Assembly (NCBI GenBank): GCA_025454475.1
Contig: JALOOJ010000021.1
Coordinates: forward strand, 1-33,419
DNA length: 33,419 nt
DNA from: Anaerolineae bacterium
GTDB lineage: Bacteria > Chloroflexota > Anaerolineae > B4-G1 > SLSP01
Direction: 5' to 3'
Every line of letters starts with the position of its first letter. Position 1 is the stretch's first letter. The translations under genes and the position numbers were made by a program. Shown one piece after another: positions 6,699-33,419 of this stretch. The notes beneath the pieces are model-generated. The model was not told the origin of the DNA and searched no databases. It saw only the letters and a list, made by a program, of their open reading frames with translations.

Positions 6699-7586
6699 AT
6701 GCGAATCAACAAAGCGGTGATCACGGCAGCGGGCAGAAACCAACGTAGCCTGCCTCTCCAGACGCTCATCGATCGCGACGGCGAGCAGAAATCCGTGCTT
6801 GAGATCCTCGTGGATGAGGCGGTCAGTGCGGCCGTCGACCAGGTTGCGGTCGTTGTCATCCCCGGGGACGAAGTGCGCTACGCCGAGGTTCTGCACCGCC
6901 ACGAGGGTGTCGTGCGGTTCATCGCTCAGGAGCGCGCTCTGGGCTATGGGCACGCCGTGTATTGCGCGCGGGGCTTCGTGGGCGACGATCCCTTCTTGCA
7001 CCTTGTGGGCGATCATCTCTACGTGAGTCGCGAGAAGAGGACGTGCGCTCAGCAGCTTGTGAGCGTCGCCGAGTCCGAGGCGTGTGCCGTGTCGGCGGTG
7101 CAGGCGACCCGTGAGACGCTGCTCCCATACTATGGCACGGTGGGTGGGCGTCGGGTCCCCGGTCGCAAGGACCTGTACGCAGTCGAGTCGGTTGCAGAGA
7201 AGCCCACACCCACGCAAGCGGAGATGAGCCTCATCGTGCCCGGGCTCCGCGCCGGTCATTATCTGTGTTTCTTTGGTATGCACGTTCTGACGCCGGCCGT
7301 GATGGAGATACTGGGGCGTCTCGTCGACGCATCCACCTCCGGGGCGCCCGCGAAGCCGAAGACTGTCGCGCTCTCCGACGCTCTCGCGGAACTGGCCCAA
7401 CAGGAAAAGTACCTGGCGCTTGAGGAACACGCGCAGCGCTATGATGTGGGTGTCAAGTACGGGCTGTTGACGGCGCAGCTCGCGCTCGCGCTGACGGGGC
7501 GCGATCGCGAGGAGGTGCTGTCGCGACTGGTTGAGCTTCTGAGCGTCCGCGAGCTGGGTCAGGATCTGTCCGGGGTGGGAGCTTGA
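6699..7586 (+). CDS. GalU-like NTP-sugar nucleotidyltransferase with degenerate signature
   Basis: [58 protein letters not shown]...[35 protein letters not shown]...[20 protein letters not shown]. Start at 6699 preferred over 6675. Confidence 0.85.
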
Positions 7587-7588
7587 CG

Positions 7589-10500
7589 ATGCATAGTCTG
7601 TTGATTGAGACGATCACCTCCGACAACCCGGTGGTGCGAGATCGGTCTCTGGATGCACTCTGTGCGTCGATGTCGGCAGCCGAGTTGCGGTCCGAATGCG
7701 AGGCTCTGGAGGCTTTTCGTCGGCAGAGCGGCAACCTCTATGAGCGTGTTCGAGCGCTCTTCTTCCTGTACGCGATCCATCGCTTCCACTTGCCACACGC
7801 CGGCGGGCTGCAGAGGCGAGGCACAATCCCATTCCGAGGCTATGAACACCTCTTGCAGCGCCGGTTTGAGGAGGCTATCCGGACGTTCCTTGAGGTGCAG
7901 CGCGTCTCAGGGATGACCCAGGGTACCACCAGTGCGCTTGCTGAAGCCTACCATCGTTTGGGTTTCCAGACGCTGGCAGACCAAGTGCGGCGGAGTGTCC
8001 GCGCCGTACGTGGTAACCAGTGGATGTTCCGGATGGGCCATCCCGCCGACCACCCCCTGCGCGTCCGGCCCGAGTTGCTGTCGCGGACCCCCGGAGGGCT
8101 GTACCCGATCCTATATGAGGCGACGCCGGTTCGGATGGACCTAAGTCACAGTGGGTGGAGTGACATCTTCTTCCTGGGGATGGATTATCCGGAAGGGGCG
8201 CGGGTACTGAATGTCTCCATCGACCTCGCCGTGCGCGGACGCGATCGGTTTCCCACACCGCCAGTCGAGGCGTACGTGCGCGTCATCGATGCGCCGATCC
8301 TGCGGCTTACGAGTGTTGACCTTGGCGCAAGCGCGGAGATACGTGACCTTGCCGAGGTGTTCGACTTCGCGAGGGACTACCTCGGTCTGCTCAAGGCGGC
8401 TATCATCGCTGCCGGCATTATCCCGCCGGGGATCGAGGGCTCTGGAGAGCAGTTGTCCGATCTTCTTGCTCGCCTCGTCGGACCCGGCCTGGGCCTTGAG
8501 GTGGTTAGCTGTGTCAAAGGCATTCCCAAGGGATCCCGGCTTGCCGTCTCGACGAGCCTCCTGGCGTGCCTGATCGCGGCGTGTATGCGCGCGACTGGAC
8601 AGGCTCGTGCCCTGGAAGGGCAGTTGGTCGAGGAGGAGCGACGTCTCGTAGCTGCACGAGCGATCCTCGGCGAGTGGTTGGCAGGATCGGGGGGCGGGTG
8701 GCAGGATAGTGGTGGCGTCTGGCCGGGCATGAAGCTGATCACCGGTGAGTTCGCTGGGCCCGGTGATCCGGAGCACGGCGTTAGCCGCGGGCGTCTGCTG
8801 CCGGCGCATCACATCCTGGACGAAGCCGAGGTCAGCGCAGACACGCGTCGCCGGCTGCAGGAGAGTTTGGTTCTGGTCCACGGCGGCATGGCGCAGGACG
8901 TGGGCCCGATTTTGGAGATGGTGACCGAGAAGTATCTGTTGCGATCCGGTGCGGAATGGAACGCTCGGCAGGAGGCGGTACGGCTGTTTGACCGGATCGT
9001 GACATTCCTCCGGCAGGGCGCTATCGAGAGTATCGGAGGAGCGACGACGCGCAACTTCTTCGGCCCGATCGAGACGATTATCCCGTGGGCCAGCAACCTG
9101 TACACGGTCACACTCATCGACCGGGTTCGCGAGAGTTTCGGCTCGGGTTTCTGGGGATTCTGGATGCTGGGCGGTATGTCGGGTGGGGGGATGGGGTTCA
9201 TCTTCGACCCTGAGCGCAAGGTCGAAGCGCAGACAAAGTTGCTCACCACGATGCTCGAGACCAAGGGCGACCTTGCGGAGGCCCTTCCATTTGCTATGGA
9301 CCCGGTGGTCTACGATTTCGCCATCAACCAGCGGGGCACCTATGCGGAGCTCCTCGCCGGTGATGTGCGCGATCAGCCAGGCAGCCCTGGCGCCGCGATG
9401 ATGCCTACCGGTTACTACACCTTGCTTGCGCCTCAGATGCTGCGTATGGGATGGCATACGCTGTCGCCCCTGCTGCGGGCCGAGCTCGATGCCTTTGGCA
9501 CGTTGTGCCGGACGGTGCCTGAGCTATCGAGCACGGTCCAGGTGTTGTTCGACCAGATGCTACCGCATTCAGATGGCGAATCGTCTGATGGCCGGACGCT
9601 TGGTGCCCTGCTGGACGAACTGGGATTCGATCGCGCTCAACACGAGAAGATCCGCACGGATCTCAGGGCCGGACGAATCGGTCTCGCCCAGAATCGCCTG
9701 GCTCCGACCACTGAGGTTCGGGATGTGCACGAGGGGGATGTGCTGGACCTTGCCGATGTCAATGAAGGGCGTGACCACGAATACACGGCACTGGGCCACG
9801 CTGCCCTCGCAGCGGGCAAGGTGGCCGTCGTCACGCTTGCTGCGGGCGTCGGAAGCCGCTGGACGCACGGCGCCGGCGTGGTCAAGGCGCTACACCCCTT
9901 CTGCAAACTCGATGGTGTGCACCGCACGTTCACCGAGGTGCACCTCGCCAAGAGCCGTCGCGTCGGCAGCCATGCAGGCGCCCCGATTCCCCATATCATC
10001 ACTACCAGTTATCTGACACACGACGCGATCCGCCGGTTCCTCGACAAGCGGGGCAACTACGGCTACCCAGGGCCGCTCTTCCTGTCGCCAGGTAGAACCG
10101 TTGGGCTGCGCCTCGTGCCAACGGCGCGTGACCTGCGCTTCGCCTGGGAAGAGATGCCGCAGCAGGTGCTCGATGAGCAGGCCCAGAAAGTGCGGGAGAG
10201 CCTACGATCTGCCTTGATGAACTGGGCGGTCAAAACGGGCGAGGCTTCGGATTACCGAGACAACGTTCCGCTGCAGTGCCTGCATCCGGTCGGGCACTGG
10301 TTCGAGATACCCAATATGCTGAAGAACGGTGTGCTGGCGCAGCTCCTCGCCGAGCGGCCGCAGCTGAAGGTCCTGATGATGCACAACATTGACACAGTGG
10401 GCACAGACGCGTCACCTCTGGTCTTGGGGGCGCACCTGGCCTCCGGTGCGACCATGACCGTGGAGGTGATCACGCGCGAGGTCGACGACCGAGGCGGCGG

Positions 10501-10945
10501 CCTGGCGCGCGTCGATGGGTCCCTGCGCCTGATCGAGGGGATGGCTCTACCACGCGAGGAGGACGAGTTCCGGCTCTCGTACTACAACACCAATACCGTG
10601 TGGATCGACATTGACAAGCTGCTGCGGGTGTTCAACCTGGAGCGGTCGATGCTCTCAGACGTCGAGGCGGTCTCGGCCGCGATTCGCGTGCTGGGATCGC
10701 GGATGCCAACATACGTTACGCTGAAGGATGTGAAGAAGCGTTGGGGTCACGGTCAGGAGGATGTCTTCCCGGTTGCGCAGTTCGAGAAGCTATGGGGCGA
10801 CATGACGGCCCTGCCCGAGATGGACTGCCAATTCGTGTGCGTCCCGAGGATGCGCGGGCAGCAACTGAAGGAGCAGGCTCAACTTGACGGGTGGGTGCGC
10901 GACGGCTCGGCTGCGTACACCGCCTCACTGTGCGATTGGGCCTAG
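7589..10945 (+). CDS. Putative bifunctional sugar kinase (fucokinase-like GHMP) / UDPGP-family sugar-1-phosphate nucleotidyltransferase
   Basis: About 1118 aa. N-terminal half: PKGSRLAVSTSLLACLIAA (GHMP motif 2-like), SGGGWQDSGGVWPGMKLITGE (fucokinase GGGWQDQ-like), GGMSGGGMGFIFDPE (GHMP motif 3-like). C-terminal: VVTLAAGVGSRWTHGAGVVKALHPF, HPVGHWFEIP, MMHNIDTVGTDASP, YYNTNTVWI (UDPGP family). GGGAG RBS upstream of ATG 7589; track start is TTG 7583. Confidence 0.8.
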   Translation: MHSLLIETITSDNPVVRDRSLDALCASMSAAELRSECEALEAFRRQSGNLYERVRALFFLYAIHRFHLPHAGGLQRRGTIPFRGYEHLLQRRFEEAIRTFLEVQRVSGMTQGTTSALAEAYHRLGFQTLADQVRRSVRAVRGNQWMFRMGHPADHPLRVRPELLSRTPGGLYPILYEATPVRMDLSHSGWSDIFFLGMDYPEGARVLNVSIDLAVRGRDRFPTPPVEAYVRVIDAPILRLTSVDLGASAEIRDLAEVFDFARDYLGLLKAAIIAAGIIPPGIEGSGEQLSDLLARLVGPGLGLEVVSCVKGIPKGSRLAVSTSLLACLIAACMRATGQARALEGQLVEEERRLVAARAILGEWLAGSGGGWQDSGGVWPGMKLITGEFAGPGDPEHGVSRGRLLPAHHILDEAEVSADTRRRLQESLVLVHGGMAQDVGPILEMVTEKYLLRSGAEWNARQEAVRLFDRIVTFLRQGAIESIGGATTRNFFGPIETIIPWASNLYTVTLIDRVRESFGSGFWGFWMLGGMSGGGMGFIFDPERKVEAQTKLLTTMLETKGDLAEALPFAMDPVVYDFAINQRGTYAELLAGDVRDQPGSPGAAMMPTGYYTLLAPQMLRMGWHTLSPLLRAELDAFGTLCRTVPELSSTVQVLFDQMLPHSDGESSDGRTLGALLDELGFDRAQHEKIRTDLRAGRIGLAQNRLAPTTEVRDVHEGDVLDLADVNEGRDHEYTALGHAALAAGKVAVVTLAAGVGSRWTHGAGVVKALHPFCKLDGVHRTFTEVHLAKSRRVGSHAGAPIPHIITTSYLTHDAIRRFLDKRGNYGYPGPLFLSPGRTVGLRLVPTARDLRFAWEEMPQQVLDEQAQKVRESLRSALMNWAVKTGEASDYRDNVPLQCLHPVGHWFEIPNMLKNGVLAQLLAERPQLKVLMMHNIDTVGTDASPLVLGAHLASGATMTVEVITREVDDRGGGLARVDGSLRLIEGMALPREEDEFRLSYYNTNTVWIDIDKLLRVFNLERSMLSDVEAVSAAIRVLGSRMPTYVTLKDVKKRWGHGQEDVFPVAQFEKLWGDMTALPEMDCQFVCVPRMRGQQLKEQAQLDGWVRDGSAAYTASLCDWA

Positions 10946-13164: not shown

Positions 13165-15405
13165 TCAGACGCCCAGTCGCCGCAGCTCGGTTGGTCGCCT
13201 ATCTGGCTCCACCATCTCGGTCTCGCGGCGGTGGAGCAGCGTCGTCTGCACGATCAGGCGTAACCGTGCCGTGTTGTCGATCCGGACCGGCGCTGGCGTC
13301 GTGGGCTTGTGTTGTGCATAGCGGGCCGCGTTACGACCGATCTGTGTGTAGGACTGCAGATCGAGATTCGGGGCCATGGAGAACAGCTCTAGATTCTCGA
13401 GTGGCGCGAGGTCGCGCTGGTGGATCACAGTTGTGCCTTTCGACTGAATGCCAATCGCGACGCCTGAACCACTGAGCTGTGCGCCGGCGTGACCGATGAA
13501 GGCACAGTCAGATGTTGCGTGCACGCGTATGATGCGCGCCGGTAATCCCTCGTCCGCGATGCCCTGGAGCATTGCATCCAACACATCGCGCAGGTCCAGG
13601 CCACTCAACGCGTGCTGAATGCCGATGCCAAACGCCGGTCCGATGGCCACGACTACCTCCGCGCGACTGCCCTCAGCCGCGGGCCCGATCTCCTGAAGCC
13701 AGGGATCGCAGGTGTCGCAGTCCAGATCGCGCACAAACTGCTGAGGGTCCCACGCTTGCGGAAGCGCCTGGAGCTGCTTCCAGCGACGTCCGTCTACGAG
13801 GTAGCCGGTGCCCGGTCCGCGATAGTCATTGGCGTCTGTGAGCGCGCTGATCACACGATAGTTGCCGGGCGCATCTGCGGCGAAGATGCCTGAGGTCTGG
13901 AGGTAGTCTCCAATGACTCGTTGCCGCTGCATCTCCAGCAGGTTCACAGCTAGGTCGGTGAAACCTGCCTGTGCCAGCGTTCGGATTACCTCGACGATGG
14001 TGATGGGGCCGTCAAGGAGCATTCTGGCTGCCCTGATGTCGGCGATGCGGTCACGATCGGGAACGTCCTCGCTGCTGAAGGCAGTGACGGCAGCGTCTAC
14101 CTCCGCATCACTGATCTCGGCGAAGTCAAAGGCGTCAAAGATGGCCTGGATAGCCCTGGCACCCCGTTGTCGCGCCTGCAGCACCTCCTCGTCGCGGATA
14201 GGGTGGATGCCACCATCGACACGCATATCCCGCTGTATGACGTACCAGTCGTCGAGCTCGGTGGTGTCGAAGTTTCCGCCGCCAAACATGTTGTCGTAAC
14301 GGGGAATCGACCCATATCCTGAGGTGATGAAATCCGTTCCCGGTATGAACTGCAGCATCAACTTGGCGCTCTTGCGCATTTCTGAATGCGAAGCCAGAGC
14401 GTCGTTGCCCGATGCTACCTCAAGGCCAAGCATCATCGCGATCAGGTTCTCAGCCAGCACAGCCCGCACGCCCTCGGGCAGCGATTCAGGCAGCGCTATG
14501 CAGCTTATCGACCCGTTCTGGGTGCCCTGACTGCCGGCGCCGCGGGTGACGAGGAGACAGCGCGCCTCGAGGTACAGCATGGACTGGCCGTTCGCGTGGC
14601 CCATCAGGGCCTCGGAACCGGTACCTGATGTGAACCGGGTTTTCACGCCGCGGCTCGCGTAGGCCGAAGCCAGAAACGCCTTGGACCACGGCGTATCATC
14701 ACCATCGACAAAGGCGCGCTCAGTGCCGTAGACCGACAGCGTTTCGGAGTAGGTAGTGAGTCCGCGGAATCCCAGTCGCAGGTTCGTGGCTTCCTCTACC
14801 GAGCACTGCGTCAGGACGCCGCCGTTCCCGACCTGGGACCCCACGAGGATCGCCAGAGCATTGAGCGGCGCGTAGCGGCTTACGCCGACTGTGGTCTCAA
14901 TCTCACGGAAACCGCGTAGCGCGGCTTCGGCCGCATCGGCAGCCAGCAGAGCAGGATGTTCCTTGCGATTGGTGACGTGAGCCTGGTTGGCAGGCGTGCG
15001 CCGCGCTCGCATTTTCGTGAGCCCCATCATCATCTCAAGGACCGTCATCTCGCTGACGATGTCGACCAGCTTGGCGGCCGTGCAGCCACGCGTGACGCTT
15101 AGCACCTGGTCGCGCGTCACGTTGATGTCGACGAGCATCCGAGCAATGTCGCGAGACGGTGTAGCCATAGCAGATTCGGCGACGGCGAGGTCAATGCCCC
15201 GCTGCGCGACGAAGTGGTCGATCAGATCGAAGTCCGCGACCAGCCTGCCATCCATCTCGGTAACCATGCCTGACTCGATGCACAGGCTGGGCTCCGGGTC
15301 GGCAGGGCTTCCGACGGCGATGAGACCCGCCTCCGGCCACGGCTCGATGAACGTCTCCCGGTTCACCGGACGTTTCTGGCGGGTTTCGTGGCGCTTTGAG
15401 ACCAT
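13165..15405 (-). CDS. B12-dependent propanediol/glycerol dehydratase, fused large + medium subunits
   Basis: 746 aa; NQAHVTNRKEHPALLAADAAEAALRGFREIETTVGVSRYAPLNALA, YSETLSVYGTERAFVDGDDTPWSKAFLASAYASRGVKTRFTSGTGSEALMG, ASGNDALASHSEMRKSAKLMLQFIPGTDFITSGYGSIPRYDNMFGGGNFD (large); C-terminal EVVVAIGPAFGIGIQHALSGL...RIIRVHATSDCAFIGHAGAQLSGSGVAIGIQSKGTTVIHQRDL (medium). Confidence 0.95.
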   Translation of the reverse strand: MVSKRHETRQKRPVNRETFIEPWPEAGLIAVGSPADPEPSLCIESGMVTEMDGRLVADFDLIDHFVAQRGIDLAVAESAMATPSRDIARMLVDINVTRDQVLSVTRGCTAAKLVDIVSEMTVLEMMMGLTKMRARRTPANQAHVTNRKEHPALLAADAAEAALRGFREIETTVGVSRYAPLNALAILVGSQVGNGGVLTQCSVEEATNLRLGFRGLTTYSETLSVYGTERAFVDGDDTPWSKAFLASAYASRGVKTRFTSGTGSEALMGHANGQSMLYLEARCLLVTRGAGSQGTQNGSISCIALPESLPEGVRAVLAENLIAMMLGLEVASGNDALASHSEMRKSAKLMLQFIPGTDFITSGYGSIPRYDNMFGGGNFDTTELDDWYVIQRDMRVDGGIHPIRDEEVLQARQRGARAIQAIFDAFDFAEISDAEVDAAVTAFSSEDVPDRDRIADIRAARMLLDGPITIVEVIRTLAQAGFTDLAVNLLEMQRQRVIGDYLQTSGIFAADAPGNYRVISALTDANDYRGPGTGYLVDGRRWKQLQALPQAWDPQQFVRDLDCDTCDPWLQEIGPAAEGSRAEVVVAIGPAFGIGIQHALSGLDLRDVLDAMLQGIADEGLPARIIRVHATSDCAFIGHAGAQLSGSGVAIGIQSKGTTVIHQRDLAPLENLELFSMAPNLDLQSYTQIGRNAARYAQHKPTTPAPVRIDNTARLRLIVQTTLLHRRETEMVEPDRRPTELRRLGV

Positions 15406-29946: not shown

Positions 29947-32900
29947 ATGAGACGACGACCAGTGCTAGCGCTCGCGTTGGGCTTGGCGCTCGTGGCGTTG
30001 GGGGTGCTTGGCGCGGCGCAGTGGCGCGCGCGCGAGGCCTTCGGGACGCGCGGGTGGACGATCGATTCTTCTGAGCCCGTGGCCGATACGCCGGGTGCTA
30101 CGGGCACGACGCTGAGCCGCGCCTGCGCTAACGCTGCCTTGGATGCGTATGCCGCGGACGACCTACCCTGGGCGCTCGACGCAATCCGGGAGGGCGGGTT
30201 CGCCTGGATACGGCAGCGGGTTTCGTGGGCGGCAGTCGAGCCGGTTCCAGGAGCGATGGATTGGACAGAGTTCGATGCGATTGCGGCCGGCCTCGAAGCA
30301 CGAGGGGTGGGGTTGTTCGCGGTTCTGGATGATGCCCCTTCCTGGGCCGGCTCGCCGCCAGATCCGGCAGCGTTTGCACGGTGGGCGGGCGCTGTGGCTG
30401 AGCGGTATGGCGAGCAGCTAACCTACTACCAGATATGGCACAATCCCAATCTCGGCGACGGCTGGGGCGGTGGTGCTGACCCTTACGCGTATGCGGCGCT
30501 TCTGTCGCAGGCTGCAGAGGCGATTCGGTCGGTCGATGTCGATGCGCGTATCGTGATGGGCAGCCTGGCGCCAACGGTGGAGCGGGGCAATCGCAACTAC
30601 GCTGAGGCGCTCTTCATTGGTATGCTCTATGATGCAGGCGCCGGGCCCTTCTTCGACATCGTGGCTGTGCAGCCGTACGGGTTCGACACTGGGCCGGATG
30701 ATCGGCGCGTGTCAGCCCATGTGCTCAACTTCTCACGGCCGATCCTGGTTCGTGAGGCGCTGGTAGCGCACGGTGAGGGTCACAAGGCGGTATGGGCCGC
30801 GACCTTCGGCTGGAACAGCCTGCCTGCCGACTGGCCGGGTCCAGCGTCGATCTGGGGCAGCGTGGACCAGGCGGCGCAGGCCAGGTACACGCTGCAGGCG
30901 TTGGAGCGCGTGGAACGCGAATGGCCCTGGATGGGACTCATGTGCGTGAATGGACTGCAGCCCAGGCCGGACATGAACGCCAGCACCGGAGGTGAGATGC
31001 CGGAAGCCGGCACCGGCGTACCGGATGCCCAGGAGCATTGGGGGTTTGCCCTGGTCGGGCCGGCAGCGGATGGCGGACTCGGGCAGGGCGAGTTCAGACC
31101 TGTGTATGAGGCGCTCCGTGAATGGGCACAGGCGCCGCCGGTGGCGGTCGCGGGTGTCTACCGGGCGGACACGAATCTGGCTGTGTTCGAGGGAACGTGG
31201 ACGCTTGGGCCTCAGGGCGCCGATATCGGTCAGTCGGGTGACCGGGTGAGCTTCGAGTTCGAGGGAACCGACGTCGCGCTGACCGTGCGACGCGGACCCT
31301 ACCGGGCGTTCCTATTCGTGACGGTCGATGGCCTGCCCGCGCCGGCTTTGCCACGTGACAGGGAAGGGCGCGCCTACGTTGTGCTGTACGATCCGCTGTC
31401 GGCCGTAGCGACGGTCCCGCTGGCACAGGGATTGCCCGCAGGAAGGCACACCGTCGAGGTGACTGCGGAGCGGGGATGGGGTCAATGGGCTCTGGCGGAC
31501 TGGCGCGTCCTGAGCCGGCCTGCCGCCGGGCTCTCCAACGCGTGGGGATACGCCGCGTTTGGCGCCCTGACGATGCTGGGGCTGGCAACCATCGCCAGGG
31601 CGGCCCCGCTGGTCGACTGGAGGACGTTTTCTGCGGCGGCCGACCGGCTGCGGCACCGAACTGGGGGATGGCTCGGGATCGCGATAGCTGCGGGTGCCAC
31701 GGCGGTGACTCTCTTTTCGGCCTGGCAGACGCTGATCGGCAACTCGGTCTTCCGCCGGTTGGGCGACCACGGACAGGGCGCAGCGCTCCTGTTGAGTGCG
31801 GGGCTCTTCTACCTGTCACCATGGTTCGTGCTGGCCCTCGGCGCGGGTCTGGTGATGGCCGTGATGGTGTTCCTGAGGCCCGCGCTGGGGCTCGCTCTGA
31901 CGATGCTCGCTGCGCCGCTCTACCTACACCCGCTGTCGCTCTTTGGGAAGTCGTTCTCGCTTGCAGAGCTGGTGCTGCTGCCTACGCTCGTAGGATGGGC
32001 GGTGCAGTTGGCTGGGGCAGGACGCCGGGGACGAGAGGCAAGGGGGCGGACGGGCCTGGGGTTGAGCGCCACGCGGCGGCTTCTGAGGCCGGTCGCGGCA
32101 TTCGTGATGATCGCGGTGCTTGCGAGCCTCGCTGCGGAACACCAGCGCGAGGCATTCCGCGAGCTGCGACTGGTCGTGCTGGAACCATCGCTGCTATTCC
32201 TGGCGTGCGCCACTCTACCCATGGACCGGCGGTCCAAGTGGCGGATCGTCGATGCGTGGGTGCTCAGCGGCCTGATGGTGGCGACGGTCGGGCTTGTCCA
32301 GTACCTGCTGTTGGGCGATGTGATCACGGCCGAGGGCGGTGTGGAGAGGCTCCGCAGCCTGTACGGTTCGCCGAACAACGTTGGGCTCTATCTCGGCCGG
32401 TTGTTGCCGGTGATGCTGGCTGTAGTGCTCTGGGGCGACAGTGCGGGCGCGGGGACAGTGGGCCAGCGATGGTTTGTGGGTGTGAGGCGCTGGGGCCGCG
32501 ACCTTGTGCGCGACGGGCGGCGGTTCGCCTACTTGGTGGGTCTGGCGCCACTGGCGTTGGCGCTGCTGCTGAGCCTCTCCCGCGGCGCCATAGTGCTGGG
32601 GATCCCGGCCGCGCTGCTGGCGATGGGATGGATGGCCGGTAAGCGTTGGCGTACAGCAACGCTCGTTGCCCTCGCGCTGGGAATCATGGTACTGATACCA
32701 CTACTGCAGACGCCACGGTTCGCGGACATGCTGAACCCGACCCAGGGCACCACCGGATTTCGCGTAGCGCTCTGGTACAGCACCCTGACGCTGGTTCGTG
32801 ATCGTCCACTCTTGGGCGTGGGACCCGATAATTACCTCTATGCGTACCGGACGCGGTACGTGTTGCCAACGGCTTGGGAGGAGTTCAACCTCTCGCACCC

Positions 32901-33183
32901 ACACAACGTCCTGCTTGACTTCGCTGCCAGGCTGGGTCTTCCCGGTCTGGCTGTGTTCCTCTGGCTGCAAGTGGCGTTCTGGCGCAGCTTGGCAGCGCTG
33001 AGGACCCGACGGCGCTGCAGCGGGTGGGCGCGGGCACTGGCGATCGGGATGGCCGGATCGATGGTGGACTTCCTCGCCCACGGGATGGTCGATGCGGCCT
33101 ACTTTGTGATTGACTTGGCCTTGGTGACTATGCTTTCACTATCCGTCGTCGTTTGGCTCAGCGATGGATGGCTTGATGGTTAG
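29947..33183 (+). CDS. Clan-A glycoside-hydrolase-like domain fused to O-antigen ligase/polymerase (Wzy/WaaL) membrane domain
   Basis: 1078 aa; N-TM; GGFAWIRQRVSWAAVEPVPGAMDWTEFDAIAAGLEARGVGLFAVLDDAPSWAG...YYQIWHNPNLGDGWGGGADPYAYAALL (GH39/GH5-like barrel); then multi-TM region with GSPNNVGLYLGRLLPVMLAVVL, LLLSLSRGAIVLGIPAALLAM, RDRPLLGVGPDNYLYAYR, LSHPHNVLLDFAARLGLPGL (O-antigen ligase signature). Confidence 0.88.
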   Translation: MRRRPVLALALGLALVALGVLGAAQWRAREAFGTRGWTIDSSEPVADTPGATGTTLSRACANAALDAYAADDLPWALDAIREGGFAWIRQRVSWAAVEPVPGAMDWTEFDAIAAGLEARGVGLFAVLDDAPSWAGSPPDPAAFARWAGAVAERYGEQLTYYQIWHNPNLGDGWGGGADPYAYAALLSQAAEAIRSVDVDARIVMGSLAPTVERGNRNYAEALFIGMLYDAGAGPFFDIVAVQPYGFDTGPDDRRVSAHVLNFSRPILVREALVAHGEGHKAVWAATFGWNSLPADWPGPASIWGSVDQAAQARYTLQALERVEREWPWMGLMCVNGLQPRPDMNASTGGEMPEAGTGVPDAQEHWGFALVGPAADGGLGQGEFRPVYEALREWAQAPPVAVAGVYRADTNLAVFEGTWTLGPQGADIGQSGDRVSFEFEGTDVALTVRRGPYRAFLFVTVDGLPAPALPRDREGRAYVVLYDPLSAVATVPLAQGLPAGRHTVEVTAERGWGQWALADWRVLSRPAAGLSNAWGYAAFGALTMLGLATIARAAPLVDWRTFSAAADRLRHRTGGWLGIAIAAGATAVTLFSAWQTLIGNSVFRRLGDHGQGAALLLSAGLFYLSPWFVLALGAGLVMAVMVFLRPALGLALTMLAAPLYLHPLSLFGKSFSLAELVLLPTLVGWAVQLAGAGRRGREARGRTGLGLSATRRLLRPVAAFVMIAVLASLAAEHQREAFRELRLVVLEPSLLFLACATLPMDRRSKWRIVDAWVLSGLMVATVGLVQYLLLGDVITAEGGVERLRSLYGSPNNVGLYLGRLLPVMLAVVLWGDSAGAGTVGQRWFVGVRRWGRDLVRDGRRFAYLVGLAPLALALLLSLSRGAIVLGIPAALLAMGWMAGKRWRTATLVALALGIMVLIPLLQTPRFADMLNPTQGTTGFRVALWYSTLTLVRDRPLLGVGPDNYLYAYRTRYVLPTAWEEFNLSHPHNVLLDFAARLGLPGLAVFLWLQVAFWRSLAALRTRRRCSGWARALAIGMAGSMVDFLAHGMVDAAYFVIDLALVTMLSLSVVVWLSDGWLDG

Positions 33184-33192
33184 GGGGACCGC

Positions 33193-33419
33193 GTGATAAG
33201 AGGCCTGGCGGGGTGGATGATCTGCGTTGCGACGGTATGGCTGACCGGGTGTGGTGGCGGCCCGCCTGCGCGAGGCACGGTAGCGCCAACCCCAACTGTC
33301 TCGACGCTCGGGCCGGCGCCACAGGTGACTGTAGCGCCCGAAGCCCCGGCTGATGGAACCAGTGTCGCGGCGCCGGCCGCTGTAGCGCTCTCCGTGCAGC
33401 CGACGACGGTCGCCGTGGG
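33193..33419 (+). CDS. Putative lipoprotein, N-terminal part (truncated by window edge)
   Basis: GTG start: MIRGLAGWMICVATVWLTGCGGGPPARGTVAPTPTVSTLGPAPQVTVAPEAPADGTSVAAPAAVALSVQPTTVAV; lipobox LTGC then P/T/A-rich linker. Confidence 0.7.
   Translation, partial: MIRGLAGWMICVATVWLTGCGGGPPARGTVAPTPTVSTLGPAPQVTVAPEAPADGTSVAAPAAVALSVQPTTVAV

Follow-up and report, generated by a model that had tools for sequence, protein, structure and literature searches.

A barrel and a ligase half in one protein

In the window, by which we mean the whole 33,419-nucleotide stretch of DNA analysed, we confirmed an open reading frame at 29947..33183 (+) that encodes a fused GH39-like and Wzy_C protein of 1078 residues, and we found orthologues of it (all coordinates of its parts given below are likewise on the + strand). 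The chain begins with MRRR and one membrane helix (residues 3-33; 29953..30045) in our AlphaFold2 model, continues as a GH39/PslG-like (beta/alpha)8 barrel (residues 59-395; 30121..31131) recognised by sequence match, AlphaFold2 and Foldseek, then as a beta-sandwich (residues about 403-524; 31153..31518) seen in the model, and ends in a polytopic membrane half whose WaaL fold is evident from AlphaFold2 and Foldseek (residues 530-1072; 31534..33162). The model was of the whole chain, was built with 49 sequences, and reached a pLDDT of 87.8 and a pTM of 0.84. An earlier note on this DNA had described the N-terminal glycoside hydrolase domain as extracytoplasmic, and we concur, since MRRR followed by a membrane helix would place the barrel outside the cytoplasm under the positive-inside rule.

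The only Pfam match above cut-off in the protein was Wzy_C (PF04932; residues 866-1005; 32542..32961), which scored 71.7 bits against a curated cut-off of 31.7. The Pfam scan found no GH39 match in the 1078 residues, and a CE2_N match within the sandwich (residues 424-482, E-value 0.00089) fell below the Pfam cut-off; annotation based on Pfam thus reads O-antigen ligase and overlooks the other half of each fused protein. Among solved proteins, PslG was the one closest in sequence to residues 76-321 (E-value 2.8e-11), and a profile of the window's clade matched PslG at 5.3e-21. Foldseek searches of the PDB also ranked PslG first, both with the whole-chain model (3.7e-15) and with the barrel and sandwich alone (3.9e-21). 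The clan GH-A barrel that the earlier note had assigned to GH39 or GH5 is therefore PslG-like GH39 in fold; the GH5 part was dropped, as was GH42, the Pfam hints to these families being weak and PslG a far better match. A phage origin of the barrel was also considered and rejected, the support for it being a 26% match of the barrel to a Caulobacter phage xylanase and nothing more.

The same whole-chain model matched WaaL (7tpg_B) with an E-value of 9.4e-9 and a TM-score of 0.65 by target length. Alignment to WaaL located an H-P-H-N motif at residues 984-987 (32896..32907), whose invariant His986 corresponds to the second His of the 7tpg HAHN, and an invariant Arg939 that is likewise aligned with WaaL; S-R-G-A lies at 878-881. 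We take His986 and Arg939 to be the catalytic residues of the ligase site, and by family the membrane half would have ligase activity.

Immediately after the fused gene there is a GTG-start, lipoprotein-like open reading frame (33193-33419, +) that is cut by the contig end. The other neighbours of the fused gene are FHA proteins and an MFS protein, and those of its clade include DUF4230 and TruD, so that we set the neighbourhood aside as uninformative about the function of the window's gene; a polysaccharide operon around the fused gene was not seen at the loci of the window's clade. Elsewhere in the window, a 1120-residue reading frame (7583-10945, +) has a UDPGP match at its C-terminus only and none in its first 900 residues, and a single reading frame at 13165-15405 (-) joins the large and medium subunits of a B12-dependent diol/glycerol dehydratase, with an IlvD-like dehydratase adjoining. 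The window's genome holds seven Wzy_C matches and one Wzz, and at another of its loci (L227, G000:C308) a very large Wzy_C-like protein (frame of 1177 residues) lies a few kb from a stand-alone GH39-like gene.

Catalytic positions in the barrel and its relatives

The nucleophile of PslG is Glu276 and its acid/base is Glu165; Asn164 makes contact with the -1 sugar (PMC11912335). In both sequence and profile alignments the PslG motifs WNEPN and TEWGW fell on W164-H165-N166-P167-N168 (30436..30450) and on W283-A-A-T286-F-G-W289 (30793-30813) of the window's protein, so that Asn164, Glu165 and Glu276 are replaced by His165, Asn166 and Thr286 (30802..30804), respectively. In the AlphaFold2 model these motifs end strands beta4 (158-165) and beta7 (281-287) of the barrel, which are the clan GH-A positions of the acid/base and the nucleophile. 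The earlier note had quoted IWHNPN and AATFGW and concluded that both catalytic Glu were apparently missing, which the PslG alignment and the model bear out; a third residue of the pocket, the Asn preceding the acid/base Glu, is gone as well. An active retaining GH39 has an Asn-Glu acid/base motif on beta4 and a Glu nucleophile on beta7, and the window's protein has neither. Other acids at the catalytic positions, which would have spoken against the note, were looked for among the conserved columns of 116 fused relatives and none was found: the well-conserved acids (E98, D110, D197, E212, D237, D252, an acid at 277, and E325) are common to intact relatives and all lie away from these positions.

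The fusion proved to be widespread in Anaerolineae-like Chloroflexota and present in other classes of the phylum. Of 99 genomes of this class, 98 contained matches to the window's protein, and these included many full-length fusions; the GTDB collection yielded 457 candidate loci, the best of which carry the titles Anaerolineae, Thermoflexia or Chloroflexi. One locus titled PVC group bacterium (L164, 223-3363) encodes a protein that nests among Chloroflexota sequences, and this record is probably misbinned. In a single-contig genome (L056, 3887-7261, -) two in-frame stops break the fused gene, and the acid/base position of the fragment is unreadable.

Column counts were made on 116 non-redundant fused proteins, and the loss of Glu that the earlier note had proposed to look for across the family was plain to see, with the acid/base Glu absent in 30 and the nucleophile Glu in 94. 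The residue before the acid/base was Asp in 87, His in 27 and Asn in 2; the acid/base column held 86 Glu, 26 Asn and 4 Gln; and the nucleophile column held 22 Glu, 35 His, 15 Asn, 11 Ser, 10 Ala, 9 Gln, 5 Asp, 3 Leu, 2 Pro, and a single Thr, Phe, Arg and Gly. Both Glu were retained in only 17 fused proteins, and the full Asn-Glu...Glu set in none. Of 17 usable stand-alone paralogues, several from the window's own genome, 16 had this set, as did (in the form WNEPN...E) 12 of 14 fused proteins from other classes of the phylum. Nearly all members of the window's clade carry W-H-N-P-N, a newly conserved motif, with Asn166 in 25/25 and His165 in 24/25. Because the Glu are absent across so many fused relatives, the loss is not a one-off, and a sequencing or assembly error as its source is ruled out by more than 100 relatives. 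At two loci, L202 (2380-3636 and 3470-6799) and L205 (11035-12291 and 1309-5046), it is the stand-alone GH39-like protein that is degenerate (WHEPN, with Ala at the nucleophile) and the fused one that is intact.

A tree of the ligase half required at least 11 changes of state at the nucleophile and at least 6 at the acid/base, and a barrel tree built without the catalytic columns gave 14 and 5, respectively; these counts are approximate, since many inner branches of the quick trees are weak. Unrooted change counts were used, as rooting the barrel tree on L004, which has a very long branch, is arbitrary; an irreversible-loss count of 27 was set aside, and a count of losses with weak branches collapsed, which did not differ from the count with those branches kept, was likewise unused. 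The ligase-half tree has some small clades of good support in which Glu and non-Glu members occur together (e.g., L166/L168/L173 and L187/L177/L193). The N-E...E set is general in clan GH-A, and this together with the intact relatives is what gives polarity to the series, the trees themselves being unrooted. The likely order is a separate intact enzyme, then an intact fusion, then a change of Asn to Asp, then repeated loss of the nucleophile, and then, in the window's clade, replacement of D-E by H-N.

Selection, surroundings and rival readings

In close pairs within the WHNPN clade the barrel had a dN/dS of 0.08-0.19, which was no higher than that of the ligase half in most pairs. Next to the dead sites, W164, P167, N168, W283, G288 and W289 show little or no variation across the 116 proteins, and N166, P167, N168, W283, G288, W289, R89 and E212 are unchanged in the window's clade. 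It is very improbable, then, that the barrel is a neutrally decaying relic on its way out; the variability of the nucleophile column (entropy percentile 0.86, among the more variable columns) would fit such decay, but the low dN/dS, a reading frame kept intact in more than 100 proteins and the invariant neighbours on either side of the dead residues do not. Purifying selection about as strong as that on the ligase half, together with the near-fixed W-H-N-P-N, argues that the barrel is a maintained pseudoenzyme, as judged from these sequence comparisons, and is not decaying. Sequence, family alignment, fold and selection tests thus agree with the earlier note that a Wzy/WaaL-type membrane domain is fused to a degenerate hydrolase.

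We therefore read the protein as a glycan ligase or polymerase of the WaaL/Wzy superfamily whose tethered PslG-type GH39 domain no longer catalyses and now serves to handle glycan, and we put the probability of this reading at roughly 55%. The GH39 domain would be held on the external side of the membrane, in one covalent chain with the ligase or polymerase; its cleft would still bind the glycan chain that the membrane half makes or transfers and would keep this chain near the ligase site, as a clamp, selector or ruler; and such handling may already have been done by the ancestral hydrolase domain and have outlived cutting. The sugar binding, with presentation or measurement of the chain, that the note had suggested is plausible from the sequence, since many aromatic and polar motif residues at the strand ends stay invariant. 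Any glycan binding would differ from that of PslG, given that the -1 subsite, which Asn164 contacts in PslG, is altered. The lack of a polysaccharide operon around the genes of the window's clade also speaks against a glycan-handling role.

The conservation of the barrel could equally come from a protein-protein role, and specifically the dead barrel might be a scaffold that no longer meets sugar and docks an intact GH39, a co-polymerase or a second Wzy_C protein. Consistent with this, outside the class stand-alone GH39-like relatives adjoin fused genes or a separate Wzy_C gene, an intact one often lying beside the fused gene (in G317 the order is intact GH39-like, intact fused, Wzy_C, LPG_synthase_TM, GT4); the window's genome has several intact paralogues in addition to its Wzz protein; and PslE binds PslG in a two-hybrid assay (PMC6813494). 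The invariant residues, however, are mostly motif Trp, Asn, Tyr and Arg common to intact enzymes, which favours a kept cleft over a new surface, and we consider the scaffold rather unlikely. We see a minor but real chance that the membrane half is instead a protein-glycosylating or cell-wall-attaching member of the superfamily, with the dead barrel recognising that acceptor. Wzy_C by itself cannot tell polymerases from ligases, and to our knowledge neither lipid A nor classical LPS is to be expected in the Chloroflexota hosts. At 39 of the 116 loci a secreted Ig-like-repeat protein with an SGNH/GDSL-like end is encoded directly upstream on the same strand (e.g., L195:2-1660 and L177:1738-6315) and is a possible acceptor or modifier, but it is absent beside the window's gene, and in many class members the genes downstream (a nucleotide-sugar epimerase, a second Wzy_C protein, a GtrA-like protein and a GT4) fit polysaccharide assembly.

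The W-D-E-P-N sisters raise a different question, since an invariant Glu is not an evident requirement of a domain that only binds; some members of the family may thus catalyse by a different route. One such route would be substrate-assisted catalysis, in which the change of Asn to Asp has created a consecutive D-E pair at the end of beta4 and a 2-acetamido group replaces the beta7 nucleophile, the window's clade having later lost the chemistry with the change to H-N. Changes were counted in 69 proteins that lack the nucleophile and lie outside the window's clade: on the ligase tree their nucleophile column changed 24 times and the acid/base Glu not once, and the Asp before the Glu was kept in 65 of the 69. 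Loss of the acid/base Glu was confined to the WHNPN clade and to proteins that retain the nucleophile Glu (4 Gln, 1 Asn). In GH20 an Asp-Glu pair sits at the beta4 end, and we know of no substrate-assisted GH39. The GH20 pair is consecutive, with the acetamido group of the substrate acting as the nucleophile, and the lacto-N-biosidase LnbB, which requires Asp320-Glu321, resembles the W-D-E-P-N sisters in this respect (PMC9016705). LnbB belongs to another family, though, and the likeness is one of motif only; moreover, the Glu may be held by structure or ligand binding, and we regard substrate assistance in the sisters as decidedly unlikely. A consecutive Asp-Glu on beta4 is present in many sisters and in neither the window's protein nor its 24 clade-mates, and with H-N in place of D-E substrate assistance is inapplicable to the window's protein. 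Slightly more doubtful still is the longer account in which Asn to Asp and substrate-assisted chemistry freed the nucleophile, after which the window's lineage dropped the chemistry (W-H-N-P-N) and fixed a glycan clamp or ruler within the ligase.

Relation to known polysaccharide systems

The need of polysaccharide assembly machines for a glycoside hydrolase has been called an open question in the literature (PMC9075953). The fused proteins bear on it as a graded natural series, running from the separate intact enzyme through the intact fusion, the fusion that has D-E and keeps the nucleophile and the fusion that lacks the nucleophile to the one that lacks both Glu; the series allows binding to be separated from cutting and suggests a role of the barrel that outlasts catalysis. 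The lasting absence of the cutting residues throughout a large bacterial lineage is a natural experiment on the reason for having sugar-cutting proteins in polysaccharide-making systems.

PslG and WaaL are known separately, and both halves of the fused protein belong by fold to known families, with the barrel outside the definition of an active GH39 enzyme; we found no description of a PslG-like GH39/Wzy_C fusion, or of its dead form, in the open-licence literature. In P. aeruginosa, PslG is mainly at the inner membrane in the Psl synthesis complex, which fits our reading; with E165Q and E276Q combined little Psl is made, so hydrolytic activity itself appears to be needed (PMC6813494), and the keeping of a dead version is therefore not what PslG would predict. 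PslG, the GH39 endoglycosidase of the Psl system (PDB 5bx9, 4zn2, 9g17), is the closest sequence and shares the barrel fold and a membrane-linked role in making extracellular polysaccharide, but it is a separate active protein with Asn164, Glu165 and Glu276 intact, whereas the window's protein has His, Asn and Thr and is covalently joined to a ligase half. The O-antigen ligase WaaL (PDB 7tpg) of the Wzy_C superfamily is alike in its membrane fold, Wzy_C match, H-P-H-N region and conserved Arg, and differs in having no large extracytoplasmic glycoside hydrolase domain. PgaB, PelA and AlgL are hydrolases or lyases within polysaccharide synthesis machines; like the fused protein they have a polymer-acting domain built into a synthesis or export machine, but they are of other families, are catalytically active, and are not fused to a Wzy_C ligase.
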